From IMG/VR virus record IMGVR_UViG_3300020167_000001, positions 21,021 to 85,020 of that record: DNA of 64,000 bases; one strand, 5' to 3'. The position numbers were made by a program, and so were the translations under genes. Below the pieces are notes generated by a model. The model was not told the origin of the DNA. It saw only the letters and a list, made by a program, of their open reading frames with translations, and made no database searches. How positions within the stretch are numbered: the stretch's first letter is position 1; the number at the start of each line of letters is the position of its first letter. This stretch comes from a virus. This document shows, piece by piece, positions 9,690-64,000 of this stretch.

Positions 9690-10201
9690 TAAGAATATTT
9701 GATTTACAAAATGGGAAGATTATTCCTACTGAGCACTGTTATACTATAGGATATCTTAAAGATATTATGGATGAATATCCTGAAGATTATTTATCAGTAT
9801 ATGCATTTCTTTTCTACATGGTTTGTCCAAATGAAGACCTTAATCCTTATTTCAATATAGCAGAAGATGTAAAAGAAGAAACTATTATGAGAGATGTTCG
9901 CGGTAACTTTACAACTGAAGATCCTTTAGTTATTGTAGCATTAACTAACTTAACAGTTATGTTTACCACTCCAACATCAAGGGCTTACAAGGGTATAAAA
10001 ATTGCCTTAGATAACATGGGTCAAGTGATGGCTGAAACTAAACCTACATTTGGTAGAGATGGTTCAGCTACAGCTCTATTAAGAATTGCTGAGAAGTTTG
10101 ACTCCGTACGACAATCTTACAAAGGAGTATACAAAGATTTACAAGATGAACAATCAACTAGAACAAGAGGTGGAGGCTCTTTAGCTTATGATCAACAATG
10201 A
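9686..10201 (+). CDS. Conserved-looking protein upstream of terminase
   Basis: A 171-residue protein without a recognised domain. Residues 40-60 are hydrophobic and aromatic (YLSVYAFLFYMVCPNEDLNPYFN). The central region is helical (SRAYKGIKIALDNMGQVM), and the C-terminus is Arg- and Gly-containing. It is two genes upstream of TerL, where many phages place the small terminase subunit, but no helix-turn-helix is obvious, so that role is only a possibility. The overlaps with its neighbours indicate coupled translation. Confidence 0.6.
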   Translation: MIRIFDLQNGKIIPTEHCYTIGYLKDIMDEYPEDYLSVYAFLFYMVCPNEDLNPYFNIAEDVKEETIMRDVRGNFTTEDPLVIVALTNLTVMFTTPTSRAYKGIKIALDNMGQVMAETKPTFGRDGSATALLRIAEKFDSVRQSYKGVYKDLQDEQSTRTRGGGSLAYDQQ

Positions 10202-10412
10202 TGAGTTACATAGTTGGTTATTTCACTATAACCCTTATAAAAAAGAATGGTGTGCTTTTAAAAGAGACCAGCTTAATGATTATTTTAATGGCACTTTAAA
10301 AGATGCTATTATTTCAAAAAATCACCGTATCTTAGTGACAGCTATTACAAAAGCTAATGGTGATACAGATAAGATAAAGCTTTTACTAAGAATTAAAAAA
10401 TTAAATGGATAG
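10188..10412 (+). CDS. Small basic protein abutting terminase
   Basis: A 74-residue protein with aromatic residues at the N-terminus (LHSWLFHYNPYKKEWCAF) and a basic helical C-terminus. It overlaps the upstream gene by 14 bases and the TerL start by 8 bases, so it is probably translated together with TerL. It could be a packaging adaptor; no family is recognised. Confidence 0.55.
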   Translation: MINNDELHSWLFHYNPYKKEWCAFKRDQLNDYFNGTLKDAIISKNHRILVTAITKANGDTDKIKLLLRIKKLNG

Positions 10413-12606: not shown

Positions 12607-12611
12607 AAGAT

Positions 12612-15392: not shown

Positions 15393-15464
15393 CCTTTAGC
15401 CATATACTGCAAAATATTTTTATGGAGACCTTAAAAAAATATCAAGTTTTAAAGTTTATATCTG

Positions 15465-15472
15465 TAAATTTG
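15465..15472 (+). promoter_or_regulatory. Weak promoter-like -7 element before the scaffold gene
   Basis: TAAATTTG fits TAnnTTTG but no TTG lies 20 bases upstream. The sequence before it (15445-15460, with AAAGTTTATAT) resembles that before the 6457 element. The gap is 113 bases, so a promoter here would be reasonable. Confidence 0.3.
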
Positions 15473-15493
15473 TGTATATTAATATAGTCAATT

Positions 15494-15502
15494 AAACCAA
15501 CA
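15494..15502 (+). promoter_or_regulatory. AAACCAACA start-proximal leader motif
   Basis: The nonamer sits 3 bases before the ATG of the scaffold-like gene at 15506. Confidence 0.35.
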
Positions 15503-15505
15503 AAT

Positions 15506-16783
15506 ATGATAAACGAAACAAAAACAACTGTAGAGGAAACTGATATTGATATTGATGCTTTATTAGGTACTCCAGGAGCTGACAATGTTATGACTCCTGC
15601 AAATACAGACACAGAAAAAAAACCTAGTCTTTTCAGTAGAGAAGGCAAGATGGATTTAACGTTCATTGACAAACCTGATGACAAAAAAGATGCTTCCTCA
15701 CAGCAAGCAGCTTCAACTGAAGGAGCTGACAACCCGGCTGGAACAGATAAAAAACCAGAAACTGTTACAAAAGATGAATTCGAAAACATCATCAATTCAA
15801 CTGAAGCCTCTACAGAAACTGAAGAAGCTACTAAAAAATCTGGTAGAGCTGGTGGCTTGGTGGAATTAACTACCAAGTTAATTGAAAAAGGCTTATTAGT
15901 TCCTTTCGAAGGTGAAGAAGATGTTTCCAAATATACTCTTAAAGACTTTGAAGATCTTTTTGAGATGAACAATAAACAAAAGGATGATAAAGCTAAAGAA
16001 GAAGTTTCTACTTCTTTCTTTAAAGGTTTACCTGAAGAATTACAAGTAGCTGCACATTATGTAGCTAATGGTGGAACAGACCTTAAAAATCTTTTCCGTT
16101 CTTTAGCAGCTTCTGAAGAAATCAAAGCTTTAGATGTTACTGATGAAGATTCTCAAGAGCAAATTGTAAGAAGTTACATGCATGCTAAAAAAGTAGGTAC
16201 AGCTGAAGAAATTGAAGCTGAGATTGAAGACCTTCGCGATAGAGGAAAGTTAGAAGCAAAAGCTTTACAATACAAACCTAAATTGGACTTAATGCAAGAA
16301 GAAATTATTGCAAGACAAGTTCAAGATCAAGAAAAAATCCGAAAACAACATATGGAACAAGCTCGTGCTTACTCAGATAATATCTACAAAGCTCTTGAAC
16401 CTGGTGAATTAAACGGATTAAAACTTGATAAAAAAACCCAAAGTGAATTATACGGAGGATTGACTCAAGCCAATTACCCATCTATGTCTGGCCGTCCTAC
16501 AAATCTTTTAGGACATTTGTTAGAAAAATACCAATACCAAGAACCAAATCATGCCTTAATCAGTGAAGCCTTATGGTTATTAAAAGACCCTGAAGGTTAC
16601 CGATTAAAAGTTAGAGAAGGTGGTAAAAAAGATTCAGATACTGAAACTGCTAGAAAGTTAAAAACAGAACAAGCTAATAAAACGGCTTCTTCTACCGCGA
16701 CTGATGAATCTGATAATAAAAACAAGAAGACAGTAGGAGTACAAAGACCATCAGGAAATAATTTTTTCAAAAGATCATTTTAA
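15506..16783 (+). CDS. Probable head scaffold protein
   Basis: A 425-residue acidic, low-complexity protein between portal and major capsid protein, the usual place for scaffold. The first 130 residues are Thr/Asp/Glu-rich and likely disordered. The middle has long helices (for example EEIEAEIEDLRDRGKLEAKA), and the C-terminus is Lys- and Ser-rich and ends in NNFFKRSF, a plausible capsid-binding tail. It would guide capsid assembly and then leave or be cleaved. No protease domain is seen in it. The function is inferred from position and composition. Confidence 0.65.
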   Translation: MINETKTTVEETDIDIDALLGTPGADNVMTPANTDTEKKPSLFSREGKMDLTFIDKPDDKKDASSQQAASTEGADNPAGTDKKPETVTKDEFENIINSTEASTETEEATKKSGRAGGLVELTTKLIEKGLLVPFEGEEDVSKYTLKDFEDLFEMNNKQKDDKAKEEVSTSFFKGLPEELQVAAHYVANGGTDLKNLFRSLAASEEIKALDVTDEDSQEQIVRSYMHAKKVGTAEEIEAEIEDLRDRGKLEAKALQYKPKLDLMQEEIIARQVQDQEKIRKQHMEQARAYSDNIYKALEPGELNGLKLDKKTQSELYGGLTQANYPSMSGRPTNLLGHLLEKYQYQEPNHALISEALWLLKDPEGYRLKVREGGKKDSDTETARKLKTEQANKTASSTATDESDNKNKKTVGVQRPSGNNFFKRSF

Positions 16784-16827
16784 AAAACAAATAAATAAAT
16801 ATAAACTAAAAACCCAAAACAAACACA

Positions 16828-18453
16828 ATGTCAACTCCAGTTTTAAACAACGGTATATTCTTGCGTGACACAAACTACAATGCTAGTTCTCATGTAGATT
16901 CTTACCACTTAGTAAACATGCTTAAGGATGCCGAACCAATGGATATGGGACCAGTAGATATCTGGGCTATGTCTCAAAAAGTTGAAATGCCTTTATACCA
17001 ATTATCATCTTTTGGTGGTAAGAACATTATCATGGTTGATAATGCTCGCGGTGAATACAAATGGCAAACTCCTGTATCTCAGGATTTACCTTACATCATT
17101 GAAGATATTGAACCGGCTAACCTTAACAAAGGTGTTGATGGTACAACTTTCAAGATTAAAATCAACAAACGTGAATTTGGTCATGGTGATATCATCACTT
17201 ATGATAAATATAATGGTGTTGAGATGTACATTACAGCTGATGATATCTTACCTATGGGAGATGGATTCATCTACACAGTACAATTAGTAAACAATGACAA
17301 CTACAAATTCCTAGAGAATAAGTATTTAACTCCTCAAACTAAATTATTCCGTAAAGGTTCTGCTCGTGGAGAATATGGTGAAAGATTCTCTGATATCCAA
17401 ACTAAAGCTGGATTCCGTGAGTTCTACAACTTCGTAGGTGGAGCTGAAGCACATGTTCATTATTCAGTATCTTCTCGTGCTGACTTAATGTTAAAAGGTG
17501 GTATGAATGCAGATGGTACAGTTCCTGTAACTGAAATCTGGAGAAACTTTGACAAGAATGTAGATCCATCAATTTCTAAAATTGAGGACATTGCTTCTAA
17601 GATGGGTAAAGACTACTTAAAACGTGCTGTAGGAAATGGTACATTAACCCGTACTTTCTTAACATCGATGGAGTCTGCTCACTTAACTAAAATTGCTACT
17701 GACATTGAGACTTACTTAATGTGGGGTCATGGTGGTGGATTGAAGCAAGATGGTCCAGATGATATGCGTTTATCAGTGGGTCTTTGGAAACAATTAGACA
17801 ACTCTTACAAACGCGTATACAACAAGTCTAGTTTCTCATTAGAATTGTTCCGTTCTGAGTTGTATAACTTCTATGCTGGTCGTGTAGAGTTCCAAGGTCC
17901 AGATCCTAAGAGACAATTAATTGTTCAAACAGGTATGGGTGGTATGAGATTAGTAAATGAGGCTATCAAGCGTGAAGCTGTTAACTCTGGTTTAGTAATC
18001 CAAGCTGCAAGCAACAATGGTATTGGAGCTATCTCTGGTCAAGGAATGGACTTAAACTTTGGATTTGCTTTCACATCTTATGTGATTCCTTTCTTAGCAA
18101 ATGTGAAATTTGTATTAAACCCTGCATTTGATAACTTACATACAAATGATATTGAGAACCCAATCATTGATGGTAACCCATTAAGTTCTTACTCATTTGT
18201 TATCTTTGATATCACTGATACAGGAAACGATAACATCTTCATGTTAAAATTATCTTGGGATAATCAATTGAAATGGTGGTACCAAAACGGTACTATGGAT
18301 TACATGGGAAGAACTCAAGGGTTCCAATCATCTGGTCAATTCAATGGTTACCGTGTGATGATGTCACAAACAATGCCAGCTATTTGGGTTAAAGATCCAA
18401 CTAAGGTATTAAAAATTGTAATGAGAAACCCTATCACAGGAGGATCATTCTAA
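16828..18453 (+). CDS. Major capsid protein
   Basis: A 541-residue protein after the scaffold-like gene, in the position and size range of crAss-like capsid proteins (HK97 fold by family knowledge). The sequence has many short beta strands and a long helical part, with no Cys clusters. Codon choice shows more C-ending codons (TAC, AAC, TTC, CGT) than the surrounding small genes, typical of a very highly expressed product. It has a 44-base A-rich leader with no Shine-Dalgarno sequence. A strong intrinsic terminator begins 6 bases after the stop. Confidence 0.85.
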   Translation: MSTPVLNNGIFLRDTNYNASSHVDSYHLVNMLKDAEPMDMGPVDIWAMSQKVEMPLYQLSSFGGKNIIMVDNARGEYKWQTPVSQDLPYIIEDIEPANLNKGVDGTTFKIKINKREFGHGDIITYDKYNGVEMYITADDILPMGDGFIYTVQLVNNDNYKFLENKYLTPQTKLFRKGSARGEYGERFSDIQTKAGFREFYNFVGGAEAHVHYSVSSRADLMLKGGMNADGTVPVTEIWRNFDKNVDPSISKIEDIASKMGKDYLKRAVGNGTLTRTFLTSMESAHLTKIATDIETYLMWGHGGGLKQDGPDDMRLSVGLWKQLDNSYKRVYNKSSFSLELFRSELYNFYAGRVEFQGPDPKRQLIVQTGMGGMRLVNEAIKREAVNSGLVIQAASNNGIGAISGQGMDLNFGFAFTSYVIPFLANVKFVLNPAFDNLHTNDIENPIIDGNPLSSYSFVIFDITDTGNDNIFMLKLSWDNQLKWWYQNGTMDYMGRTQGFQSSGQFNGYRVMMSQTMPAIWVKDPTKVLKIVMRNPITGGSF

Positions 18454-18458
18454 TAACT

Positions 18459-18487
18459 AGGAAGGGTGTAACAGCCCTTCCTTTTTT
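18459..18487 (+). terminator. Intrinsic terminator after the capsid gene
   Basis: The stem AGGAAGGG (18459-18466) pairs with CCCTTCCT (18475-18482) around an 8-base loop. It is followed directly by a run of T. It closes the packaging/capsid transcript. Confidence 0.85.
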
Positions 18488-18561
18488 CTTCACAAGTTGC
18501 AACAGACGAGGGAATCAACATCCCGGTGAAGATCAAATATTAACTATAAAAACTAAAAACA

Positions 18562-19086
18562 ATGTCTATATTATCAACACTTGTTGCAACAAGAAAAAGA
18601 ACTTTTAATTTTTTATCAGGTACCAATCAATTAGCTACCATAGCTGATGTAAATAAAGTTATTAATGCTCTTAATAACTTAGTACCTTACAGAATGTATG
18701 ATGTAGCTATTACTCAATCAAGTACTGATGCTCCTGTATTATCTAAATTAGCAGCTGGTGCTAAAGAATGCGGAGTTACATGTGATTGTAAAACTGTAAA
18801 TTGTGATTGTTCTTCTCCATGTGGCGATGATTCATCATTTAGTGTATCTACTAGTTATTCTGCTGTTGGTGTTTATGATTTTACTTTTACTTTAGATCCT
18901 AAAGCTTATCCTAAACCTATTAAAAATATAGGGTTCTTCTTTGGTACTTTACCAAGTGTAGAATCAAAAGTAGGTGTTGCTAAAATCAGCACTAATGTTT
19001 ACAGATTAACAACAGCTGATAAATCTAATGTAGCAACAAACGGATTGTTAACAGATACAGTTCTTGCTATGAAGATTTATTTCTAA
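18562..19086 (+). CDS. Capsid-linked small protein with a Cys cluster
   Basis: A 174-residue protein. The N-terminal 60 residues are helical and basic at the start. Then come six cysteines within 18 residues (Cys70, 74, 76, 81, 83, 87). A beta-rich C-terminal domain of ~85 residues follows (FSVSTSYSAVGVYDFTFTLD). It is likely a head decoration or auxiliary protein by position behind the capsid gene, with a separate A-rich leader. The Cys cluster could bind a metal or form disulfides outside the cell. It is not recognised as a known family. Confidence 0.6.
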   Translation: MSILSTLVATRKRTFNFLSGTNQLATIADVNKVINALNNLVPYRMYDVAITQSSTDAPVLSKLAAGAKECGVTCDCKTVNCDCSSPCGDDSSFSVSTSYSAVGVYDFTFTLDPKAYPKPIKNIGFFFGTLPSVESKVGVAKISTNVYRLTTADKSNVATNGLLTDTVLAMKIYF

Positions 19087-49227: not shown

Positions 49228-52200
49228 ATGGCTGAGGAAATAGTAGCATCTGAACAAAACACTGAGTTGGATAATACAGCTCCTGAAATTATCAATCAAC
49301 CTAGTTTAGCTGATCATTTAGATAATTCTTTAACATTAGCAGCAAAGCCTAAAGCTATTGATGTTTATAAAAATGTTGTAGGTAACCCTGTTGCAGGTTC
49401 TAATCCTGGAAGATATCGCGGAAATTTTGCTGATAGTTTAGGTAATGATCTTGAAAAGAAATTACAAGCTCCTACTACAAATTATCAACAGATGAGACCA
49501 TTTACTTATAATGGTGATTTTGACAATGCTAATTTTGAAAGATACTATTCTACAAGTAAATACAAGGACATAGGTTTTTCTCCATATCGCGACAATGAAA
49601 GTCTTTATAACAATAAGATGACCTTCGGTGACCAGTTTGTAAGAGCTGCTTCTCAGTGGGACAACTTAGCTGTTACAGGTTTCAAATCAGGTATTCGTGC
49701 TTGGGGTGATTTATTCACAGACCCTTTAGCTCCAGATATTGAAAGTGCACGAGAAATGCAAAAAGCTATGGCCATTGGTAATTCTAATGCAGGAGGCTTT
49801 GGAGGATTTGTTACAAATACATTTTTAAACTCAGCTTATACTATTGGTATTGCTGCAGACTTTTTAGCTGAAGAAGCCGCACTTGCTGCTATTACAGCTT
49901 TTACTGGAGGTTTATCTGGAGAAGCAACCTTACCAGGTATGGCGGCTAAAGCCGGCATGGCTACTAGAAAGCTTATGGGTTTTAGTGAAGTTGCTGCTAA
50001 AGCTGGTAAAGGTGCAACTGAGGCAGCTAAGGCTGCTAAGTTAGCTAATGAAGCTGAGAGCTTAAGTTCAGGTATCCGTTCTGTAGAAGGTGTAAATGAT
50101 CTTAGAAGTTTTTGGAATAAAGTTAAAGCCGGTGGTGTTGGCGGAGCTCTTAATAAAACTCTTGATATTTTAAATCCTCTTGAAAATACAACTCAAGCTC
50201 TTAAGACTGTAGACTATGCTACAGATTATGCAAAAGGTATTGCCACATTCGGAGCTTTTGCTGATGATATCATTCATATTAAAACTGCAGTATCTGAAGC
50301 CAAACTCGAAGGAGGTATGGTGAAGATTGATGCTACAAAAGATATGATTGAAGAATATAGGAATTCCCACTTTGGTGAAGATCCTACAGGTGAAGAATTA
50401 CAAAAGATTGAAAACCTGGCTAACCAAGCTTCTTTCAAAACTGCATTCTGGAACTTGCCAGCTATCATGACCAGTAATAAATTATTGTATGCTACCATGT
50501 TGGCACCAATGAAAAGATTAATGGGTAGAGCTACAGGTGCCGCGATGATGGGAGATATTGTAGCTGATAAAGCATTGAAAGCTGGAGCTGGTGAAGTTGC
50601 TAGTTTCTCAGCTGTAGGTGAAGGTATTGGTGCCAAGGCTCGAGTGTTTGCCAAGTCAATGGCTAATCCTAAATTATATGGGAATGTAGGGATGAACTAC
50701 CTTAAAGCAAACTTTGCTGAAGGTGCACAAGAAAATATTCAAGAAGCAATTTCTCAAGGAGCTATCCGTGAAGCTATGGATTTATACGGTGACCCAAGAA
50801 TGGCAGCTTACCAAGGTTACATGGGTTACTTCATGGATGGTATGAAAAACCAGTTTTCTGCTCAAGGTGCTGAAACTTTTGCAGGAGGTTTTGCTATGGG
50901 TATGTTTGCTCAACCGATCATGGCTGCCCCAGCTTGGTCCATATCAAAATTATCAGAACTTGCTAAAGACAAATCTAAGATAGCGGCAGCTAAGGCTGAA
51001 AGAGATGCTCAGATTAAAAAACAAGTTACAACACTTAATGAATTAGCAAGTAGCCCCTTAAAATACTTTGCTCCTGATTTAGCTAATGCTGTTAAAAATG
51101 GTAAGTTAAATGATACTTTATATGAAGCTGTCACCGAAGGTAATCAACAAAAAGCTGTTGATGCTAGAGATGCTCTTGAGTTTAATCACATTGCTACCGC
51201 TTTAGAAACTGGTAAGTATGATTTATTCATTAAGCAATTAAAAGATTATAAAAACTTATCTCCTGAAGAAGCTGCCGAAGCTTTTAAGAAATATGGCATT
51301 GATGTAAAAGATGCAGGAAAAGCTATGGCTCAAATTGATGCTATCATTGAGAGAGCTGAAAGTATCCGTGATTCTTTTAATGATCAGTCTACAGAATTCC
51401 CTAATCCTTACAATCCTACCAGATATGAACCTGGTAGTAAAATGAGAGAGGCTGTTGAATTATCATATCTTGCTTGGCAAAAAGCTACAAGAACATTGGT
51501 ATTTGCTAATACTAGTTTTAAACAGTATGCTCGTAGAATTGACAGTATGGCTCAAGCTTTTTCTACAATGTCTGCTAACATTGCTAAAGGAGATGCTCAA
51601 GCTATTATGACCTTATTAACTTTACCAGGCATTGAAACTGAAATTGCAGCTTTAAGAAAAGAAGTAGCTATTTTAAAAGATGTTGAAGGAGCTGGCAAGG
51701 AGAGACGCGATAAACAAAAAAGATTAGAGCTGCTTGAGCAATTCCATGTTGAAATGGATAATGCTCAAAAAACAGAGGATGAAAAAGAAGGAGCTAAAGC
51801 ACATAAAAAAGCTAAGAGTACTTTCAAAAAATATGTAAAGCATTTAAGTGAAAAAAATAATGTCATCACTTTTGATACGGAGATTGATGGAGCTTATACT
51901 GTATTAAAAGACAGTTTAGATTTACATGATGCCCGTCAAGGTTTTGCTCAAAGTATTAATGTATTAAGTCATCCTAAAGGTTTCTTGAATTTACAATACC
52001 GTTTGGCTGAATCTTTAAAAGAAACTTATGCAAAAAAGCAAGAGCAAATCTTAGAAAATCAAATGAACCATTTAAAGATGATTGATTTTAATCATGCTTT
52101 ACAAGAAGTTGGTAAATTAGGATTGGCTGTACCGGCTGAATATACTAGTGATTACAAAGATGCTTTGGCTAACAACAAAACTATTTTAGAGCCGACTTAT

Positions 52201-55200
52201 TTTGAAGATATCAAGACTGGTGAAAAAGTTACGTCTGGTGAAAAATTTGATAAAGCTTTAGAGCTTTGGAAAACACATTTAGAATTAATCAGCACTGTTA
52301 AAGAAATGCAGGCTGAAGCTGAAGCTGCTAATAAGAAAAAACTTGTTGACTTTAAAGCTGATGATTTCGAAACTTATCCTGAAGACTTAGTAGCTTTATT
52401 AGAGGCAACTTTACAAGAGGAAATAAAAGCTGGTAATGTTAGCCCCGAGATGATGGTTAAAGAATTTGCCATGACTCAGCTTACAGCTAAAAAAGTAATC
52501 AATGAGTATAAGGAGAGAATAAAAAATTTGCTTCCTATTGAACAGAACACAGTAAAGAAAACAGCTGCTCAACAAGATACTTTAGAAAAGCTAAAGAGTA
52601 TCAGCAAGAAAGTACAAGAGCCTACTAAAGAAAATCCTCATTATGTTATTGATGGAGTTACTTATGATTTACGTGTAACTACATTAGTTGATGAAATCTT
52701 ATTTAATACTTTAGGTAAGAAGAAGTTTGCTTTAGAGAACATTCCTAATGGTGGACCCGAGTTAGTAAAACTAATTGAAGATACCGTTAATAATCCAGCT
52801 TTAGTTGATGTTAATCCTAAGCAATATGCCAAGAACATTATCAAAGCTTTAAAAGAAAAGCAATTTGAGAGTCCTGTATTCTTTAAACAATTCTTTGAAG
52901 CAGAGAACAAACCTATTAACAGTAAGTTTGATAATCTGTTAATATTATTAGAAGCCGGCATATCTGTTGAAAAGGTAAAAGAGGCTGTAGGAAAAGTCCT
53001 TTATGAAGAGTCAACTATCCGCGGTAATACAATTGATAACTTAGGCCGAGATTTCTTTGAAGGAAAAACTATCACTAAACCTGCAGGTATGAGTGATGCC
53101 GCCTTCAAAACTATTGAAGATGCTTTCACTAAACTTAAGTCTGAGATAGATGGTCGAGGAGAAGTAATCATTAGTAGAGATTTAACTTTGTTTGGAGCTG
53201 TTACTTCTGGTCAATCTGTGGCTGGAACAATGGACTTACTTGTTATTACTCCTGAAGGTAACTTCAAGATTTATGATATGAAGACAGCTTCTCAATGGAG
53301 CCGCTTTGGAGAACAGGGAGATAATCAAGATGGCTACTTTAAGAAAGAAGGATATGCTTTACAATTGGCTATTTACAAGAACTTATTAGAAAACTTAACA
53401 GGTGTTCCTGTTGAGAGTCTTGAGTTATTAGGTTTCCAAACAACCAATGATTTAAAAGGTAATATCAGTGAAATCAAGGTTGTTGATGATAAAGCTAAGA
53501 CTACGATTAACTATAATACTTACAAAGTTACTCCAGAGAAAACTTTAAAAGAAGTGGTATCTGAATATGTACCATCTAATTTAGAGAAAGGTATTGATCT
53601 TGGTGCTGAGGTTAATCCCGAGGCTAAGGCTCAATTAAATGCTATGGGTTACAGTAATACTCAGATTAAAGAATTATCTCGCGAAGAAAGAGCTAAAATC
53701 CTTACTGGAGGTATTGCTCCAGAAGATTATTATAAGACTGAAACTCCTACACCGGCACAAGTGGAAACACCTGATGTTAAAGAAACTGTACCAGGAACAT
53801 TCAGTCTTCTTGACGGTCAACGTGTAACTAAGAATGGTGTAGAAGGTACTATCAAAGTGGAAGGTTATGGTACTATTATTTTTGAAACCAATAATGTTGA
53901 ATATGTTATTGAGAATGCCAAGAGTGATAGTAATCCTGCTGAATTTAATTTTAAAGGTATAACTATAGAAGAACCGTTGGCCGTGCCTGCTGCAAAAACT
54001 TTAGATACCAAGTATAAAATATCTGATATTTCTGAAAGATCTGTTACAGTAAATGATGTTGAATACATTATTAACACTAATTCTATTGGTACCATTACTT
54101 CCGTATCACCTGTTAATAAACCTAAGCAAAAACTTAAAAATGAGAAGTTATTAATAGCTATCGAGATTGAGAGAAATAAATTAGTTTATGATAATGTTAC
54201 ACCAGAAATAGCTAAAGAAGTTGTTAACCAAGCTAAGACTGAAAACCGTACTACCAGTGTATTAGAGGGAATTTATGTTGAAAACTTTACAGACACTGTT
54301 GCTTCAGGTATTGATAAATTATACAACAAAGAACCGTTAACTGAAGCTGAGAAATTACAAGTTGAGTTATGGGTGTTTGACACTTTAGATAAAGTGGATG
54401 ATTTATTGAGAAATGATGAGTACAAAAATAATGAAGAAGTAAAAAATAGTTTTTATAATTTAAGAATAATTAATCATTTACTACATGAACAAGACAAAAA
54501 AACCCAGCCTGAAACAAGAAGTGTTGAACAAGCTCCTGTATCTAAACCTATCAAAAAGTCAAAAAGAACCATTAAACAAAAAGCTCCCTCAAAAATAGAG
54601 GTTGCCGAAGCCAAAGAAGAAGCTCCTGTTGAAGAGGTTTCTCCTATTGATTTGTTTAATGCAATGTCTATTGAAGAAAAGTGGCTTAGTTTAATAATCA
54701 GCATGAAGCCCGAAGATGTTCTTGATGTTGATAATTTATATTCTGCAGGAGTAATGCAGGTTAAAATTACTACACCTGGACCTCATCAAGGTAAGATATT
54801 GGATGTTACTAATCAATTAGCTAATGCTCCAAGAAAAGTTAATCTTGAAGACCCGTCTTCCGTAATCATGTTACAAAAAATCACTAAAGATTTCAAAGGA
54901 GATGGTAAAATGAGATTAGCCATTGAGGTTAATAATTATCTGGGAGATGTTTTTGGATATGTGAGAGAGAATACACCGGGAGCAATTAAAGAATCTCCTG
55001 TAGAAACTCCTGTTGAAAAGACAGCTACAGCTGAAGCGATATCAAAAGATATTAACATTGATACGTTAAGAGTGGCTAAACAAAAAAATTATGAAGTGAT
55101 GTATGAATCTTTAGATAATCCTGAGAAAAACGGCAGGTATTTAATTACAAAAATCACAAAAAATTCAGTAACTTTAGCCAACTTAAATGATAAAATTACG

Positions 55201-55383
55201 GTAAAGACAAAGGATCTAGCAACTAATATCAAATCAGTTTTAGATAATGTGGAGCCAGTAACTTCAGTTGAGGATAAAAAAGTCATAAAAGAAAATACCA
55301 AGGTTAAAGAAGAACCGAAGTTTACTTTTACAAGACTTAATAAAGATGAGAGATTTAAAAACACTAATGATAAAACTTGTTAA
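49228..55383 (+). CDS. Giant cargo protein with PD-(D/E)XK nuclease domain
   Basis: A 2,051-residue protein. Residues ~200-330 and ~395-620 are Ala/Gly-rich and hydrophobic (for example YTIGIAADFLAEEAALAAI, FAEGAQENIQEAISQG), which may be membrane-active. A long helical part follows. At ~1310-1400 a RecB-like nuclease appears: GTMDLLV with Asp1336, KIYDMKT with Asp1350 and Lys1352, and ALQLAIY with Gln1379. The C-terminal part has Pro/Lys/Glu linkers. It is likely ejected into the host, where the nuclease might act on host DNA or on phage DNA. Stop TAA is in frame with the next giant gene, 3 bases before its ATG. Confidence 0.7.
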   Translation: MAEEIVASEQNTELDNTAPEIINQPSLADHLDNSLTLAAKPKAIDVYKNVVGNPVAGSNPGRYRGNFADSLGNDLEKKLQAPTTNYQQMRPFTYNGDFDNANFERYYSTSKYKDIGFSPYRDNESLYNNKMTFGDQFVRAASQWDNLAVTGFKSGIRAWGDLFTDPLAPDIESAREMQKAMAIGNSNAGGFGGFVTNTFLNSAYTIGIAADFLAEEAALAAITAFTGGLSGEATLPGMAAKAGMATRKLMGFSEVAAKAGKGATEAAKAAKLANEAESLSSGIRSVEGVNDLRSFWNKVKAGGVGGALNKTLDILNPLENTTQALKTVDYATDYAKGIATFGAFADDIIHIKTAVSEAKLEGGMVKIDATKDMIEEYRNSHFGEDPTGEELQKIENLANQASFKTAFWNLPAIMTSNKLLYATMLAPMKRLMGRATGAAMMGDIVADKALKAGAGEVASFSAVGEGIGAKARVFAKSMANPKLYGNVGMNYLKANFAEGAQENIQEAISQGAIREAMDLYGDPRMAAYQGYMGYFMDGMKNQFSAQGAETFAGGFAMGMFAQPIMAAPAWSISKLSELAKDKSKIAAAKAERDAQIKKQVTTLNELASSPLKYFAPDLANAVKNGKLNDTLYEAVTEGNQQKAVDARDALEFNHIATALETGKYDLFIKQLKDYKNLSPEEAAEAFKKYGIDVKDAGKAMAQIDAIIERAESIRDSFNDQSTEFPNPYNPTRYEPGSKMREAVELSYLAWQKATRTLVFANTSFKQYARRIDSMAQAFSTMSANIAKGDAQAIMTLLTLPGIETEIAALRKEVAILKDVEGAGKERRDKQKRLELLEQFHVEMDNAQKTEDEKEGAKAHKKAKSTFKKYVKHLSEKNNVITFDTEIDGAYTVLKDSLDLHDARQGFAQSINVLSHPKGFLNLQYRLAESLKETYAKKQEQILENQMNHLKMIDFNHALQEVGKLGLAVPAEYTSDYKDALANNKTILEPTYFEDIKTGEKVTSGEKFDKALELWKTHLELISTVKEMQAEAEAANKKKLVDFKADDFETYPEDLVALLEATLQEEIKAGNVSPEMMVKEFAMTQLTAKKVINEYKERIKNLLPIEQNTVKKTAAQQDTLEKLKSISKKVQEPTKENPHYVIDGVTYDLRVTTLVDEILFNTLGKKKFALENIPNGGPELVKLIEDTVNNPALVDVNPKQYAKNIIKALKEKQFESPVFFKQFFEAENKPINSKFDNLLILLEAGISVEKVKEAVGKVLYEESTIRGNTIDNLGRDFFEGKTITKPAGMSDAAFKTIEDAFTKLKSEIDGRGEVIISRDLTLFGAVTSGQSVAGTMDLLVITPEGNFKIYDMKTASQWSRFGEQGDNQDGYFKKEGYALQLAIYKNLLENLTGVPVESLELLGFQTTNDLKGNISEIKVVDDKAKTTINYNTYKVTPEKTLKEVVSEYVPSNLEKGIDLGAEVNPEAKAQLNAMGYSNTQIKELSREERAKILTGGIAPEDYYKTETPTPAQVETPDVKETVPGTFSLLDGQRVTKNGVEGTIKVEGYGTIIFETNNVEYVIENAKSDSNPAEFNFKGITIEEPLAVPAAKTLDTKYKISDISERSVTVNDVEYIINTNSIGTITSVSPVNKPKQKLKNEKLLIAIEIERNKLVYDNVTPEIAKEVVNQAKTENRTTSVLEGIYVENFTDTVASGIDKLYNKEPLTEAEKLQVELWVFDTLDKVDDLLRNDEYKNNEEVKNSFYNLRIINHLLHEQDKKTQPETRSVEQAPVSKPIKKSKRTIKQKAPSKIEVAEAKEEAPVEEVSPIDLFNAMSIEEKWLSLIISMKPEDVLDVDNLYSAGVMQVKITTPGPHQGKILDVTNQLANAPRKVNLEDPSSVIMLQKITKDFKGDGKMRLAIEVNNYLGDVFGYVRENTPGAIKESPVETPVEKTATAEAISKDINIDTLRVAKQKNYEVMYESLDNPEKNGRYLITKITKNSVTLANLNDKITVKTKDLATNIKSVLDNVEPVTSVEDKKVIKENTKVKEEPKFTFTRLNKDERFKNTNDKTC

Positions 55384-55386
55384 GCT

Positions 55387-58300
55387 ATGTCTATTTGTAA
55401 TTTAGAACAAAATTTAGAGTTAAAAAATGCTTTAGCCAATGTAATTTATAATGAAATTTTAGATGCTGTTGATGCAAAGAAGCCTTATAAATTATCCGAT
55501 ACCATTAAGGAATTATACAAGAATAACTATAATGAGTTCAAAGATGAAACTAAAGCATTAGGTTTAGTTGCTGCATTACCTTCTTTACTTTTTCAAGTGA
55601 TTGAAGCTGAACCTTCTTTGTTTACTAAATTGGCCAGCACGGGCTTTAACTTGGATGAGACTGTTAAATTCAAAAATGAAATTGAATCTGCTGAAGATCC
55701 TTTAGCAATAGTAAAAAGTATTGTAAGCACTGAACAGGTTAGTGTAAAAGTTCTTATCGATACACAATTAAATCCTGAAACTAAAACTACAGACTTACAA
55801 ACTTTTCCAGAAGTTGAAGTTATTGAGGTAACTGGTAAGTTTTTAAAATCAAACTCATACTTTGCTACCACCGGTCAACAACTTGATGAAGCTAATAAAC
55901 TTCCGTTCATTACAAAAACAAATGTTAACAAAAACTTTTACTATGATATTTTAAAAAAATTAGCTCTTAAACAAGGAGATGCTTTAACTTTTGAGAATGT
56001 AGAATACTCGGGTCACACAGGATTCAAATTAAAAGCATTGTATGAAGGTAACCTTCCTAATGCAGAGACCAATCTTTATCCAGGTACAAAATTAGATTCT
56101 AAATCAAGAATTGCTGCAATTACCGATAACAATGGTAACTTCTTATACTTTAATGAAGCTTTTGAGGTAACCACAGAAGATAAAGGTAAGATTGCCTATT
56201 TCTATTTAAAAAATGCTTCTGAAGACAGTAATGCTAAATTGGAAGCACAGTTATTTAATCAGCTGGATATTATCTTGAAAGATACTTACAATAATGATTC
56301 TATTAGATATGAGATAGAAAAAGCAAAAGCTAAAGATTATTTAAAGAAACAAATCACTCAGGAACATAATATGATGATGAGTATCAATGGTAAATTGATG
56401 AATGGTCAAACTGTTATGTTAGATATTATAAATGTTAATACAGGCTATGTGGAGAACACAGATGTTCTTTATAAAAACATTAAGAACCCTGAACAATTAA
56501 AAGAAGCTAAGAAAGTTTTAGATCAACCTTTGGTTAATTATGCTCTTTCTAAAGCTGAGATTGGTAGTATTACCGTAGCCTCAGCTCAGATGATGATTAA
56601 AGGTGAGTTAAAAAATAAAACAATTTCTGCTATTAAATTTGAAGGTATCCCTGAATTTATATCATTAAAGTCAGGTTTATTATCTAAAGTTGAACCTGAG
56701 ATTTACAATAACATCATTAGAACTTTTACTGAGTATTTAAAAAAATCTAACGGTAAATACTTAAATGCTCAAGAAATTTATGATTATGCAAAACAGTTTG
56801 TTAGATTAGAGAAAGAAGACATTGGTAATGAAAAAACTAATCTTACTGTAAGTGCCACTAACAACAAATTAATTGTAACCTTAAATGGTAAACAACTTAA
56901 TTTAAAAAATCAAGAAGACATTGAAAAGTTTAAAGATTATGTTTCTAAAAATGTTTTCTTCACCTATATAAAAAGTAATATAAACAATACTTATAAATCA
57001 ATGAGTATTGTTGATGGAGTAGTTACACAGAAAGATGAACTATACAGTGACTTAGTATTAAAGAATATGATACCGCGTGTAGGATTTGACTCAACTACTC
57101 AAAGACCTTTATCTCCTAACGGTTACTTCACTTTTAAATTAGCTGATGAAGTTACTGAAGTTCAAGATAAAGCTAAGGAAGTTGTCAATGTTGTAAAACC
57201 TGTTGACTTAAATTTTGATTTAGATGTGTATGAGAGATCAAAGTTATTACAAGCAATGGGTACGCCAGAGCAAAATGCTAAAGCTGAAGCTTGGTTAAAA
57301 TCAAGTGCACTGTTCAAAGCTAAGGATGCCAACGGTAAACCTTTGTTTAATATTCATGATTTAAGAAATGTAGTAAACTCAGATGCTTGGGCTACATTCA
57401 AAAAAGCTACAATCACATTATATGCTGGTTCAGATTTCACTACAGGATATCACGAGTCTTGGCATGCATTCAGTCAAGTGTATTTATCAAAAGCTGATAG
57501 AGATGGATTGTATGATGCTGTAGGTAAATTGCCAGGTACTTTTAAAGTTATCCGTAAGAATAACTTAGGTGGTGTTACCAACTTGTCTTTCGAGACTGTT
57601 AAGTTCAGTGAGGCTACTAGAAAAGAAAAAGAAGAATTTATTGCTGAGGAGTTCAGAACATTTGCTGTTAACAATGGTAAGTTCAAAACAGAGAATGCTA
57701 AAACTAATATTTTCCAAAGAATCTTTGATAGAATTTGGAAAGCATTGCAAACTTTATTTAAAGGTACGTCTACAGAAAATGTATTTTCTAACCCAGGTTC
57801 TGAAGGTATTCTATCTGAAATATTCAACACATTGTATACAGCTAAAACAGAAGCTGATTTAAGTGGTTATAAACCTGATATTAATAATGGAGAGTTTACC
57901 ATACTAAATTCGGGTCCCGTTAAAGAAGATGGTTCACCAATCTTCCAACCTACAGAATTAGCTTTGCTTACTCGTAGTATGGATGGTATCATATCTAAGC
58001 TTACTACAAGTTTACTTACAGCTAATGTACCAAAATACAATGCTGTAGCTACTCTATTAACTACCAACAAAGGTTTAACCAATCTTTATGGTACAACAAT
58101 TTTAACTGCCTTCACAAACAGATTGGAGACTTTAAAAGCTGAGTATGAGCAAGAACAAAAAAGCTGGGATGAGATAACAAAAACTTACAAAGCTGGCAAT
58201 ATTGATTTATTAGAAAGAGCTATTAAAAACTTTGGAGATATCAATGAAATTTTAAATACTAAATTATCAAAAGATAATTTGATTTCTTATCATATTGAGA

Positions 58301-61300
58301 CAAGTGCTTTTGCTGATAAAATCAGAAAAGAAGCTGATGATGATACTGTAGAAAAATTAGGAGACAAATCAGGTAATGAGACCGACTCTTTAGAATTGGC
58401 TGCACCAGATGCTGTTTTCCTATTGAAGAGCTTAATCAAACAAACAGAAACTCCTAATAAGGAAATAGTAGATAAAGCAAACAGTTTAGGTTTCCCTGAG
58501 CTAATTGACTACAGTTCTTTCTTTAGAGTATTGATTGATAAAGCCGGTGGAGAGAAGCGTGTTGATGAGCTTTACAATAAGCTTGTAGAATTAAAAAATG
58601 TATCTCCTTTATTTAACCAGCTATTGGTAAAATTAGGAGATCCTTCTAAAGTGATACCTGCATCAAAATATGCTGGTCAAATGTGGTTAGGTATAACTCG
58701 TACCTTAAACTTAGAAAAAGAAAATTTAGTTTCTGCCCAATACATTATTGAGGAAGATGCTGCTAAAAAATCTGACTTTAAAGTATTAGTAGGTAAAGTG
58801 AGTGGAGACAATTACTTGATTAAAAATAAAAAATGGCCAGCAAAATTTGCTACTGAAGTAAGTCCTTTTGTTGAACAGAATTCTGATAATCAAACTACAT
58901 TAAAGTTAGAAACTATTGCTGGTAAATTCTTAAAGCAAGAAGTTGATAGTGAAAATGTAATCCGTTATATGGTTCCAGCTGTACAACAAATAGCTTTCTT
59001 GAATGCAATAGGAATGTTTGTTGAAGACAACTCATATACTAGAAAAGCTATAGCTGAAATTTCAGATAGTGTTAATTATATTGCTGACTCTATTGGTCAG
59101 GCTAATTTTAATAAGTCATTCTTGGCTCAACGCGGTGAAGCTCCTATTACAAATATTGTTACTTTCTTAAGTAAGAAACACCCTAATATACAATTACAAA
59201 CTAAAACAGGTGTATTCAAAAAAGGTAATATTGAGTCTCAAGCTAGTTTAGTAAATAAGATAGCTCAAATTGATGCAGATTATTCTGTTGAATTTGGTAA
59301 CTCAATGATTAGCATTCCTGGTGGTGGTAAAAAATCTACCAGTTCTTTAAACAGCTCCTTAACTCAAATTGTATATGCAATGAATAAGGCGGCTGTTACA
59401 GGAGACTTTAAAGCTGATGGTAATTATTCTTATGCTCCACACTTAGCTTATGCTAACAATCCAACGGTGATGGGTTCTATATTCATGAAAAATCTATATG
59501 ATTTAAAAGGAGATAGAATTACTGATAAACATGTTGAGATTGTTGATTTAGTAGGTTCTCAAATTACAGATGCCGAAGGTATATCTGATGGTGTGGCTCA
59601 TGGTAAGATGAGCATGAATGATAAGTTCATTACAGACTTCTCTTCCTTATTGAGTGCAGGTTATATTGAAGCTGTACGACATGGTGAGAAGAGTACTTAT
59701 TCAGGTGTTCGTTTAAACAAGGTTGATACTTACAGAAACAAACTAACTCCATATTTATATATCGATACTCAAGCTTTTCTTAAAAACAAGAAAGGTGATT
59801 ATATATTAGGCTTTGATCCTTTTGATGTGCTTATTGAGAACATCATGATGCCAAAATTAGAAGGTGAACTTCGAAGAATTAAAATGATCAAGAGTAATCC
59901 TGAGCTTTACAAGAAAGTTAAAAACTTTTGGAACAGAGGTATCAAGTTAGATTTCTTTGATAAAATATTGCAAACTTCAGGAGAGAGTTTAGTTAGTGAA
60001 TATGCTGAACAATTAACTGATACTAATAATTTGAATGACTTGCTGAATACCAATCCAGGTCTTCGCGAGAAAATCAGCAATGATATCAAGAGTTATTATA
60101 CTGAGTTCAAGGAAAGAATTGAGAAAAACAACTACAATAAAACCTTTGAAAAGGATAGAGTATCTAAAGTTCCAACTTTCTTAAACAAGGTTGCCACAGA
60201 GCATTTATCTAAAGAACAAGTTGATGCTATTGCTAATGATAAAAACATTAAGGATGCTTTGTTGTATTCTTTTGTAATCAATAGTTCTATTCATGCTAAT
60301 GAGGTTATCTTGTTAGAATTAGGTGATGGGTTTCAGTTTGATCATAACAAAGATGAGAGTACAAAACGTGTACCTACATATAACTCAACAGGTATCATTT
60401 TCCCTACAGATACTTTAGCACAAATGTTTATTAACACTCATGTAGGCCGACCTTATGAGGATCAGTTAATTACTGAAGGAAAATTAGTAAGAAAGAATGC
60501 TAATCAGAAATCTAGCCGTACTTACAATGGTACCGGTATCAAAGCTATCATTAAGGAAAGTGTTGTTGATACCAACTCTACTACTTACAAGCAATATGCT
60601 GATATGTTCCGCCACTGGTTAAATCAAAGAAAATACAAAGGAGATATCAATGAAGCTTTGTTTGGTAAAGGTGGTACTTTCGAAAAACCTACAGGTGGTC
60701 TAATGAAACCTTATACAGGTATTAAAGATGGTGATGGTCAAGGTTGGGTATCATTTGATACTTACCGTCAGTTCAAAGAACTTGAGAATAACTGGTCACT
60801 AGAACAAGAAGCTGCTTACCAAAAAGAATTAAAAGGTCTTCCTATTAGTCCTGCTGAATTAGAGGAATTATTTCCCGTATATAAATTACAGTATGCAGGT
60901 CCATTAAAAACTAAAGATGGAGAGTATCCTGTGCAGTCTATTGACAAGTTCTCATTGTTTCCATTAATACCTAGTGTTATTAAAGGGATGCCCTTAGAAC
61001 AGATGCATTTAGCTATGATGGCTCAGAATGTAGATTATGCTTTATTTGATTCAGGAGCCAAAAGATCCTATATCAGAAAAGATGATTCTACAAATGGTGA
61101 TGTTATCTATGATGGAACTACCGATAAGATTAAACCTTATACTGAAATTGACTTTACACCAAATGATATTCACTTTGAATACTTAAAAAATCAAACTGAA
61201 ATTAGTAAAGTGTTCAAGGGAAAATCTACTTTATCAACCCAGCTCCGTAAAGTATTTAACATTAGTCTTTTTGATGAAGGTACTCCTATTGACTACACTG

Positions 61301-64000
61301 GCTCTAAAGAATGGTCTTCATTATCAAATGCTGATAAAATTAAAGCCAGCCCTATCTATAAAAACACTGAGGTAGTATATGATCAGATTTCTCGATTAAC
61401 TTCCTTCATGAAAGACCAATTGATTAAAGACTTAGGTTGGGAATTGGTAAACGGTAAGCCTCAAGGTGACATGCTTAACATGATCAATTTTGTTAAAAAA
61501 GAATTGGTTAAGCAAGATTATAGCCAGCATGAGATTGACTTCATTGAATATGAAGCTAATTCTGATATAGATTTAAGTTTAAGTCCTGAAGCTGCCCGTT
61601 TGGAAAAGTTATTAATGGCTGTTGTTAACAACCGATTAGTAAGACTTAAGATTAAGGGTGAAGCTTTGGTACAATTCTCTGCAGCATTTGCTAGTCCGAC
61701 ACCGGCTGACATTGCTAAATATGATGACTTTGGAACTAATGGTTTAAGACCATATGTAGTAGATTCAAAAGGTAAAGAGAATACTAAAGGAGTACGTGTT
61801 AAGGTTGCTCTTACCGAGAACTATCAGAACTTGTTTAACACAACTTACTATGAAACAAAGGATGGTAAAACTACAGACTCGGGCAAGAACATTGCCGTGT
61901 ACATTAAAAACCCAGATACTGAATCTAAGAGAAAGTTTATATTAGATTACCAAGCAAGTTTTAACCGTCTTAATGAGATGATTAAAAATGATACCTGGTT
62001 ATCTGATGAGAACAATAGAAAAGCTTTAATGATTACAGGTGTGAGAATTCCTACACAAGGGCCTAACTCAATTGAGTTTGCCGAGATATGGGAATTTTTA
62101 CCAGCTTCTGCTGGACCTATCATTATTATCCCTGCTGAGATTGTTGCTAAATCAGGAGGTGACTTTGACGTTGATAAGCTTACAATGTACATTAAGCATA
62201 TCACTAAGACTGGTAAGACTTTAAATGATTCATACAATAAGCCAGAAGATTTAGATTCTTTAATTAAAGAAGCTGAGGAGAAATTAAAAGCATTAAAAGG
62301 AGAAAAATTAAATGTAGTTAATTACTTGAATGATTTCCGCGAAGCTTTCAATACTGAGAAAAATCATAAGAATGTTAGTAAATCTGATGAAAGAAAATAC
62401 AGTAACAAAAACAATGAGCAGTTACTTAAAATTTTAAAAGATCCTAATTCACAAGAGTTTTTAAAGAAAAATTTTAAAGCTTCTTATAAAGTTTATGAAA
62501 ACACTTTAAAGAAATTTACTACTGAAGATTTAGTTGAGTCAGAGAACATGATTGATGAACTGTTCAGTAAGAAGGGTGAGTTAAATTCTTTATTCAAAAC
62601 AGTAACTGATTTAAAAGAACAAAAGAGATATTTCACTGCAGGTATTCAGAATAAGTTAGTTGATGATATTGTTAATGTTATGCAAATGCCTGAAATGGCT
62701 TTTGCTTTAATGCAACCTAATGATACTCACTTAACTCAGCCTTTAGCTAAAGAATTAGAAGAGACTTTTAAAACTTTAAATAATATTCAAGATAAAAAAG
62801 GACCATTGGGTACAAGCCCTACCTCTTTATCAGAGTATGATTATAACTTACAGAAACAACAAGATAATATTTCTGGTAAAGAGATATTAGGTATGATTGC
62901 ATTACAAAATACATTTTCAAACTTGTTAACTGTGGCCGGAGCTACAATGAACCCAAGTTTAAAAATTAAAGTAACTGTACCAAGTCTTAATGATAAAGGT
63001 GAAGTGTATCCTGAAATTGTTGAGAAAGAAGTACCTATTCATTTGAGATTAAACTCTAATATTAAAACAGTAAAAGATGAAACATTAAAAGCTGTATCAG
63101 TAATCTCTTTATCAAATAGAACCGATGCTGAAAAAATTAATGCTATATCTGATGTATTATCTCAATTGATGAATGGTGCTGTGGATGTTGGTAAAGATGC
63201 ATGGATAGCCTATTTACAAGGTAACATGGAAGTTATCAATAAGATATTGTTCTTGTTACAAACAGGTGTTCCTATTACAGACATTGCATACTTTGTAAGT
63301 AATCCATTGACTAAAGCTTATGTGCAAGAAAAGATAAATAGAAGTTCTCCATTAGCTAAAATTAAATATGGTCCAAAGACTAACACTTCAATCACTGCTG
63401 CTAAGAAAGAAGCAAGACGTAAGTTCTTAAGTAGTATTGGTACAGACCCTGTTTTAAAATACAACAAGAATAATATCTGGGCTTTTGACCACATACTTAA
63501 TACTGAATACAAGAATGTATCTTTTAGTAAAGCTACATTAAAAGCTGTTGCTAATTCAAAGATGAATGTTACAGACTCTAATCAAATTGCAGGGTTCTTA
63601 CAATATTTATACATTGAAGATTTAATTGAAGAGTTTGATAACTTTAAAAGTTATTTAAATGTGGATACCTCTACATCTATTGATAACTATGAGGCTCAAG
63701 CTAAGTTGAATGATATTAGTAAAATTGAAAACTTCCAAACTTTAAATAAGGATATCCTTAAATGGTTTAAAGAGAAGAGTCCTATTTCTTCTTTCTTTGT
63801 ACAAGAGTTTGCTAGATCTTTATTTGGTGAGAATTTATTTAAGACTCGTGATAATAAAGTCATCAATGATTTCTTATTAAACTTAACTGATGATTTAAAA
63901 GCTATGAGTATCTTAAAAAATACTACAACAGTTAATAAAGATTCTTTGGTAAGTAAATTCAAGAATGCATTAAGCTTATACATATTCACTAACAATCTTA
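55387..64000 (+). CDS. Giant crAss-like virion RNA polymerase-like protein with zincin motif, 3' end missing
   Basis: The frame is open from ATG 55387 to the end of the window: at least 2,871 residues and still no stop. KSGGDFDVDKLTMY at Asp2259-Asp2263 is the DFDxD metal-binding motif of the two-barrel RNA polymerase of crAss-like phages (for example phi14:2 gp66, whose motif is DFDID). About 1,570 residues earlier, GYHESWHAF gives an HExxH zinc motif (His689, Glu690, His693), with a possible third ligand in AEEF (Glu755). Such polymerases are packed in the capsid and transcribe early genes after ejection. The zincin could process the giant chain or attack a host protein. Confidence 0.8.
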   Translation, partial: MSICNLEQNLELKNALANVIYNEILDAVDAKKPYKLSDTIKELYKNNYNEFKDETKALGLVAALPSLLFQVIEAEPSLFTKLASTGFNLDETVKFKNEIESAEDPLAIVKSIVSTEQVSVKVLIDTQLNPETKTTDLQTFPEVEVIEVTGKFLKSNSYFATTGQQLDEANKLPFITKTNVNKNFYYDILKKLALKQGDALTFENVEYSGHTGFKLKALYEGNLPNAETNLYPGTKLDSKSRIAAITDNNGNFLYFNEAFEVTTEDKGKIAYFYLKNASEDSNAKLEAQLFNQLDIILKDTYNNDSIRYEIEKAKAKDYLKKQITQEHNMMMSINGKLMNGQTVMLDIINVNTGYVENTDVLYKNIKNPEQLKEAKKVLDQPLVNYALSKAEIGSITVASAQMMIKGELKNKTISAIKFEGIPEFISLKSGLLSKVEPEIYNNIIRTFTEYLKKSNGKYLNAQEIYDYAKQFVRLEKEDIGNEKTNLTVSATNNKLIVTLNGKQLNLKNQEDIEKFKDYVSKNVFFTYIKSNINNTYKSMSIVDGVVTQKDELYSDLVLKNMIPRVGFDSTTQRPLSPNGYFTFKLADEVTEVQDKAKEVVNVVKPVDLNFDLDVYERSKLLQAMGTPEQNAKAEAWLKSSALFKAKDANGKPLFNIHDLRNVVNSDAWATFKKATITLYAGSDFTTGYHESWHAFSQVYLSKADRDGLYDAVGKLPGTFKVIRKNNLGGVTNLSFETVKFSEATRKEKEEFIAEEFRTFAVNNGKFKTENAKTNIFQRIFDRIWKALQTLFKGTSTENVFSNPGSEGILSEIFNTLYTAKTEADLSGYKPDINNGEFTILNSGPVKEDGSPIFQPTELALLTRSMDGIISKLTTSLLTANVPKYNAVATLLTTNKGLTNLYGTTILTAFTNRLETLKAEYEQEQKSWDEITKTYKAGNIDLLERAIKNFGDINEILNTKLSKDNLISYHIETSAFADKIRKEADDDTVEKLGDKSGNETDSLELAAPDAVFLLKSLIKQTETPNKEIVDKANSLGFPELIDYSSFFRVLIDKAGGEKRVDELYNKLVELKNVSPLFNQLLVKLGDPSKVIPASKYAGQMWLGITRTLNLEKENLVSAQYIIEEDAAKKSDFKVLVGKVSGDNYLIKNKKWPAKFATEVSPFVEQNSDNQTTLKLETIAGKFLKQEVDSENVIRYMVPAVQQIAFLNAIGMFVEDNSYTRKAIAEISDSVNYIADSIGQANFNKSFLAQRGEAPITNIVTFLSKKHPNIQLQTKTGVFKKGNIESQASLVNKIAQIDADYSVEFGNSMISIPGGGKKSTSSLNSSLTQIVYAMNKAAVTGDFKADGNYSYAPHLAYANNPTVMGSIFMKNLYDLKGDRITDKHVEIVDLVGSQITDAEGISDGVAHGKMSMNDKFITDFSSLLSAGYIEAVRHGEKSTYSGVRLNKVDTYRNKLTPYLYIDTQAFLKNKKGDYILGFDPFDVLIENIMMPKLEGELRRIKMIKSNPELYKKVKNFWNRGIKLDFFDKILQTSGESLVSEYAEQLTDTNNLNDLLNTNPGLREKISNDIKSYYTEFKERIEKNNYNKTFEKDRVSKVPTFLNKVATEHLSKEQVDAIANDKNIKDALLYSFVINSSIHANEVILLELGDGFQFDHNKDESTKRVPTYNSTGIIFPTDTLAQMFINTHVGRPYEDQLITEGKLVRKNANQKSSRTYNGTGIKAIIKESVVDTNSTTYKQYADMFRHWLNQRKYKGDINEALFGKGGTFEKPTGGLMKPYTGIKDGDGQGWVSFDTYRQFKELENNWSLEQEAAYQKELKGLPISPAELEELFPVYKLQYAGPLKTKDGEYPVQSIDKFSLFPLIPSVIKGMPLEQMHLAMMAQNVDYALFDSGAKRSYIRKDDSTNGDVIYDGTTDKIKPYTEIDFTPNDIHFEYLKNQTEISKVFKGKSTLSTQLRKVFNISLFDEGTPIDYTGSKEWSSLSNADKIKASPIYKNTEVVYDQISRLTSFMKDQLIKDLGWELVNGKPQGDMLNMINFVKKELVKQDYSQHEIDFIEYEANSDIDLSLSPEAARLEKLLMAVVNNRLVRLKIKGEALVQFSAAFASPTPADIAKYDDFGTNGLRPYVVDSKGKENTKGVRVKVALTENYQNLFNTTYYETKDGKTTDSGKNIAVYIKNPDTESKRKFILDYQASFNRLNEMIKNDTWLSDENNRKALMITGVRIPTQGPNSIEFAEIWEFLPASAGPIIIIPAEIVAKSGGDFDVDKLTMYIKHITKTGKTLNDSYNKPEDLDSLIKEAEEKLKALKGEKLNVVNYLNDFREAFNTEKNHKNVSKSDERKYSNKNNEQLLKILKDPNSQEFLKKNFKASYKVYENTLKKFTTEDLVESENMIDELFSKKGELNSLFKTVTDLKEQKRYFTAGIQNKLVDDIVNVMQMPEMAFALMQPNDTHLTQPLAKELEETFKTLNNIQDKKGPLGTSPTSLSEYDYNLQKQQDNISGKEILGMIALQNTFSNLLTVAGATMNPSLKIKVTVPSLNDKGEVYPEIVEKEVPIHLRLNSNIKTVKDETLKAVSVISLSNRTDAEKINAISDVLSQLMNGAVDVGKDAWIAYLQGNMEVINKILFLLQTGVPITDIAYFVSNPLTKAYVQEKINRSSPLAKIKYGPKTNTSITAAKKEARRKFLSSIGTDPVLKYNKNNIWAFDHILNTEYKNVSFSKATLKAVANSKMNVTDSNQIAGFLQYLYIEDLIEEFDNFKSYLNVDTSTSIDNYEAQAKLNDISKIENFQTLNKDILKWFKEKSPISSFFVQEFARSLFGENLFKTRDNKVINDFLLNLTDDLKAMSILKNTTTVNKDSLVSKFKNALSLYIFTNNL

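Follow-up and report, generated by a model that had tools for sequence, protein, structure and literature searches.

A giant crassvirus protein with a zincin-like domain fused to a two-barrel virion RNA polymerase

The sequence analyzed here, referred to as the window, is the whole 64,000-nucleotide stretch corresponding to bases 21021–85020 of an 85,020-base virus record (IMGVR_UViG_3300020167_000001). The following genes are present at the locus.

16828–18453, plus strand: crassvirus major capsid protein (Pfam PF23898, Crass_capsid, E = 4e-32).
49228–55383, plus strand: upstream giant protein of 2,051 amino acids, which bears a PD-(D/E)XK nuclease domain and aligns colinearly with the initial part of crAss001 gp47.
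55387–64000, plus strand: giant frame, a zincin-like domain fused to a two-barrel virion RNA polymerase, 3′ end missing.

Given that a crassvirus capsid protein is encoded in the window, the genome can be assigned as crAss-like. Crass_capsid was also present in five of eight related records, these five being the records longer than 80 kb. Among phage records, the best match for the capsid protein was the cyanobacterial Leptolyngbya phage Lbo-JY46 (27% identity over 99%); the polymerase profile described below gives no match in this phage. For crAss-like phages, a PD-(D/E)XK nuclease like that of the upstream giant protein has also been reported in large proteins of the transcription block (PMC7886860).

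The giant frame stays open for 2,871 residues with no stop codon, because the virus record ends at that point. A full-length IMG/VR relative comprises 4,307 residues and is 41% identical over the shared part, and so about one third of the giant protein is probably absent from the window. Beyond the shared part, Pfam detects an AlkB-like 2OG oxygenase in this relative (E = 3.5e-7), and an ASCH-like segment is also present there. PHROGs returned no match for the giant protein, and Pfam searches of the whole protein returned nothing meaningful. As a preliminary description of this DNA had noted, HESWH (residues 689–693) and DFDVD (residues 2259–2263) occur in this single open frame. The features of the polymerase module are as follows.

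60196–62844, plus strand: two-barrel RNA polymerase core, residues 1604–2486, from profile, AlphaFold2 and Foldseek matches to 6vr4.
60883–61062, plus strand: invariant lysines K1833, K1854 and K1892 of the first-barrel region (gp66 K1012, K1027 and K1065).
62044–62052, plus strand: R2220-x-P2222, preceding the catalytic loop (gp66 R1322 and P1324).
62161–62175, plus strand: DFDVD, the predicted metal-binding catalytic loop (gp66 D1361, D1363 and D1365).

A profile of 48 relatives, covering residues 1604–2486, was searched against the whole PDB at E-values up to 10 and matched a single protein, 6vr4 (E = 1.1e-61), the virion RNA polymerase (gp66) of the crAss-like phage phi14:2. The AlphaFold2 model of the polymerase core (pLDDT 85, pTM 0.82) led to the same protein: the top Foldseek match was 6vr4 (E = 9e-21, probability 1.00), followed by QDE-1, another two-barrel polymerase. 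The model aligned to 6vr4 over 922 columns, with a TM of 0.55 by query and both barrel regions on one chain. Of 18 family-invariant residues that were mapped, gp66 shares 17, among them the three lysines listed above and the three aspartates; the catalytic residues correspond one to one, and DFDVD therefore falls within the expected catalytic barrel region. One DxDxD is found in the giant frame where 0.7 would be expected from composition; by itself, this motif would thus be chance-like, and it is conservation that settles both DxDxD and HExxH. In summary, homology of the polymerase module to phi14:2 gp66 is strongly supported by the sequence profile and by the modeled fold, which together uphold the earlier identification of a crAss-like virion RNA polymerase. 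CrAss polymerases can be giant, and examples reaching about 6,000 residues are already known (PMC10136315).

Two relatives depart from this pattern at the catalytic loop. The closest (L018, IMGVR_UViG_3300008261_000125, frame 8129–19000; 58–64% identical) is missing ∼40 residues in frame at about residue 2246. The gap is exactly the DFDVD stretch and involves no stop or frameshift, and no DFDxD is present elsewhere in the locus; either an assembly fault or a dead polymerase would account for it. In cr108_1 (L005, NC_055878), a stop lies inside the catalytic motif (AKAGSD*) at ∼13406 in the locus, and the sequence resumes ∼290 bases on as YDIDKMYL. This interruption looks like an intron placed within the DxDxD codons.

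Upstream of the polymerase, the giant protein contains the following features.

57349–57876, plus strand: putative zincin-like metallopeptidase domain, about residues 655–830, a conserved block in homologue alignments.
57451–57465, plus strand: HESWH, with predicted zinc ligands H689 and H693 and predicted general base E690.
57631–57654, plus strand: EEFIAEEF, residues 749–756, containing Glu750 as the probable third zinc ligand.

Across 56 relatives, the invariant residues of this region are Y688, H689, E690, W692, H693, Y709, E750, A753 and F756. In a more diverse set of 79 homologues (19–69% identity to the window copy), which was thinned at 70% identity, includes crAss001, Dulem virus 41 and the Suoliviridae, and mixes loci chosen partly on an HExxH peptide with polymerase-chosen loci, the sole invariant residues are H689, E690, H693, E750 and A753. 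By computation on these alignments, the H-E-H-E set is shown to be under strict selection. The preliminary description had pointed to an AEEF downstream of HESWH, with Glu755 as the relevant glutamate. AEEF is indeed present at 753–756, with Glu755 as its third letter, but the conserved glutamate is a different one: among the 56 homologues, position 755 is Asp in 50% and Glu in 34%, E754 is retained in 95%, and E750 is invariant. Glu755 was therefore rejected as a zinc ligand. Given that Glu750 is among the only invariant residues of the 79 homologues, it is probably the third ligand.

The best PDB matches of the 79-homologue profile are the zincins PPEP-1/Zmp1, at only E = 0.004; the alignment keeps HExxH and the EExxAE helix in register. 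E750 of the giant protein aligns with Glu185 of PPEP-1, presumably a zinc ligand. A model of the zincin region reached a moderate pLDDT of 75.7; the helices bearing HExxH and E750 were predicted at pLDDT 85–95, and the upstream strands and sheet were poor. Foldseek searches of this model against PDB and BFVD returned noise only, with no zincin match, and Pfam searches of the 56 homologues returned no zincin family. Assignment of residues ∼655–830 as a zincin metallopeptidase of gluzincin-like type is therefore supported by conservation and not by fold. Thus, the zincin proposed earlier holds with respect to its invariant catalytic residues and a profile search that weakly favors zincins, but not with respect to its third ligand, and the structure prediction provided no match to a zincin fold.

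To what extent the two modules share a chain was assessed by survey. The peptide patterns used in a first zincin survey included YHE[SA]WH, and HExxH intactness was left uncounted there. Given that this survey was partly selected on an HExxH peptide, it was repeated with loci found by the polymerase alone. Zincin and polymerase were readable in one frame in 74 of the 79 polymerase-selected loci, and HExxH was kept in all 74, although identical or near-identical contigs mean that the independent cases are fewer than 74. Four of the other loci are cut by a contig end, and one has an in-frame TAA between the modules. The distance from HExxH to DxDxD in the surveyed loci is 1,416–1,710 residues. 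The missing Pfam and Foldseek matches would be consistent with HExxH being a chance motif and no metallopeptidase being present. This explanation is highly improbable and was rejected: the giant frame contains one HExxH where composition predicts 0.014, so that the motif is not chance-like, and the 74 loci that retain it were chosen without regard to HExxH. In addition, Pfam likewise finds no zincin in the region of the phage N4 virion RNA polymerase that is assigned to zincins in the literature.

Several further observations were made on these loci. A single in-frame TAA lies between the zincin and polymerase modules in L027 and L104 (IMGVR_UViG_3300009170_000006), and the same frame goes on after it. 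Variable tail enzymes, namely AlkB-like 2OG oxygenase, NADAR, ASCH and SF1 helicase, occur C-terminal of the polymerase core in L004, L006, L022, L039, L082 and L085. Among 22 proteins whose genes directly follow that of the polymerase in IMG/VR relatives, 20 bear another HExxH, often as HEFAHP, and these may possibly represent a second zincin-like domain in the transcription block. Gp65 of phi14:2 also has an HExxH, and none is present in the sister phage L004. With regard to overall architecture, the giant chain shows a trait of polyvalent proteins (Iyer et al. 2017), among which zincins are common, in that unrelated enzyme domains are joined, zincin with RNA polymerase here and varied tail enzymes in relatives.

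The boundary between the two modules was located with an inter-domain profile.

57934–58086, plus strand: joint between zincin and polymerase modules, about residues 850–900.

The later columns of this profile match stand-alone polymerases near their N-terminal ends (gp66 from residue 64, crAss001 gp50 from 162 and the Dulem virus protein from 171), and the first columns match weakly (E 0.02–0.04) to the C-terminal ends of zincin chains. From these alignments, the gene break of split crassviruses maps to residues of about 850–900 in window numbering. Its position in the gene order differs between phages. The upstream protein carries the zincin at its C-terminal end in crAss001 and Dulem virus 41, which have the polymerase on a chain of its own. 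The window and most IMG/VR relatives place the break ahead of the zincin, and a single chain comprises upstream part, zincin and polymerase in some IMG/VR phages and in the Suoliviridae.

The polymerases of phi14:2 and crAss001 are present in virions and transcribe early genes (PMC10172136, PMC10136315), and gp47 of crAss001, the chain that bears its zincin, was detected in virions together with gp49 and gp50 (PMC10172136). Gels of crAss001 virions show bands at 150, 270 and >300 kDa (PMC6235969). The 270- and >300-kDa bands would fit uncut gp47 and gp50, which suggests near-full-length packaging of the chain that bears the zincin and makes cutting before packaging unlikely in crAss001. No cleavage product is reported in the literature searched. 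For the N4-type virion RNA polymerase, Iyer et al. (2017, PMC5512222) proposed that the zincin works either on its own chain or on host proteins, whether within the head or once injected. This proposal agrees with the present data, which name a likely cut region.

Taken as a whole, the locus is best explained as encoding a crassvirus virion RNA polymerase with a built-in zincin that cuts co-packaged cargo, to which we give a probability of roughly 0.5. By analogy with crAss001 and phi14:2, the giant protein would be carried in the capsid and enter the host along with the DNA, after which the polymerase would transcribe early phage genes. The zincin may cut one or several giant proteins of the co-packaged cargo, most likely at domain joints such as 850–900 and either after packaging or on host entry; such cutting could let the polymerase and tail enzymes act as separate proteins. 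Self-processing by the giant protein, as raised in the preliminary description, is possible. Release of the polymerase cannot be the only job of the zincin and was rejected as such, given that the crAss001 zincin stays intact on another, non-polymerase chain. A more general form of this scheme is put forward tentatively, in which crassvirus cargo constitutes a phage polyprotein system: a conserved zincin would cut the injected giant chain after packaging at domain joints (∼850–900 here), so that the virion RNA polymerase and the variable tail enzymes are set free, and lineages would differ in whether a gene break or the protease creates the joint.

Two other roles for the zincin were considered. 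It may be an injected effector that cuts host proteins, for example of defense or transcription, early in infection, with the polymerase fusion serving only to share packaging and delivery. Such action has already been proposed for polyvalent-protein zincins (PMC5512222), and it would be consistent with catalytic residues that are intact on the polymerase-free zincin chains of Dulem virus 41 and crAss001 and with the conflict- or repair-type tail domains of relatives' giant proteins (AlkB-like oxygenase, NADAR, ASCH and SF1 helicase). However, the analysis turned up neither a host target nor a specificity feature, and the near-constant position of the zincin beside the polymerase joint also fits a cargo role; host attack is thus a possible but doubtful function. 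A second role, mainly in packaging or ejection as a structural signal with proteolysis secondary or absent, is suggested by phage N4, in which the zincin-containing region is required for encapsidation and the polymerase is packaged uncut (PMC5512222). This is unlikely here, since a purely structural domain would have no need of H, E, H and E residues that are invariant in 79 homologues when nearly all else varies.

Crassviruses dominate the human gut virome, and megadaltons of giant proteins are injected through the tail, requiring partial unfolding. A putative protease that is built into the polymerase chain, and whose catalytic residues are invariant across a large clade, is a testable candidate for cargo maturation or for attack on host proteins.

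Both a zincin in the crAss transcription block and a zincin-polymerase fusion in N4-like phages are already known. The literature searched yielded no relevant paper on a crassphage zincin or a crAss-like metalloprotease. In the papers covered by that search, no description was found of zincin and two-barrel core on one chain across a large clade, of the H-E-H-E set as invariant or of a gene break that slides, although part of this may be published. An earlier mention is found in the GenBank annotation of cr110_1, which refers to NC_024711 and reads "putative RNAP associated protein fused to zincin protease." This annotated crAssphage zincin likewise belongs to the transcription block, but it resides on the upstream protein instead of the polymerase chain, and its divergence is too great for profile detection: comparison with the Intestiviridae zincin region was not significant as a whole, although the helix pattern looks alike.

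Among other known systems, gp66 of phi14:2 (6vr4) is the same two-barrel polymerase as that of the window, with conserved residues including DFDxD aligned, but it is a stand-alone chain of 2,180 amino acids that lacks HExxH, and a weak zincin-like stretch occurs in the neighboring gp65. In crAss001, a homologous zincin (HEAFH) in gp47 and a homologous polymerase in gp50 are present, as in the window protein, but on separate chains encoded on opposite strands, with the gene break just after the zincin. The Suoliviridae giants (cr118_1, cr4_1, cr53_1, cr7_1, cr1_1 and cr10_1) carry zincin and DFDxD polymerase on one chain, as in the window; in these giants, the upstream part is fused as well, giving 4,460–5,445 amino acids in total, and three of these frames are open only if TAG is read as an amino acid. 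PPEP-1/Zmp1, a Pro-Pro endopeptidase, shares the HExxH and EExxAE helix arrangement noted above but is a small free-standing enzyme, unlike the giant fused chain. The N4-type virion RNA polymerase, a polyvalent protein, also combines a virion polymerase and a zincin on one giant injected chain. By contrast, its polymerase is of the single-subunit T7 type, unrelated to the two-barrel enzymes, and its zincin is C-terminal to the polymerase. Profile comparison revealed no detectable similarity between the crassvirus and N4 zincins; a scan for further N4-type zincins found N4 itself only, and no N4 family profile could therefore be built. The pairing of zincin and virion polymerase is common in crassviruses and has a parallel in phage N4, and its recurrence with an unrelated polymerase suggests that phages injecting a polymerase of their own have a need in common.
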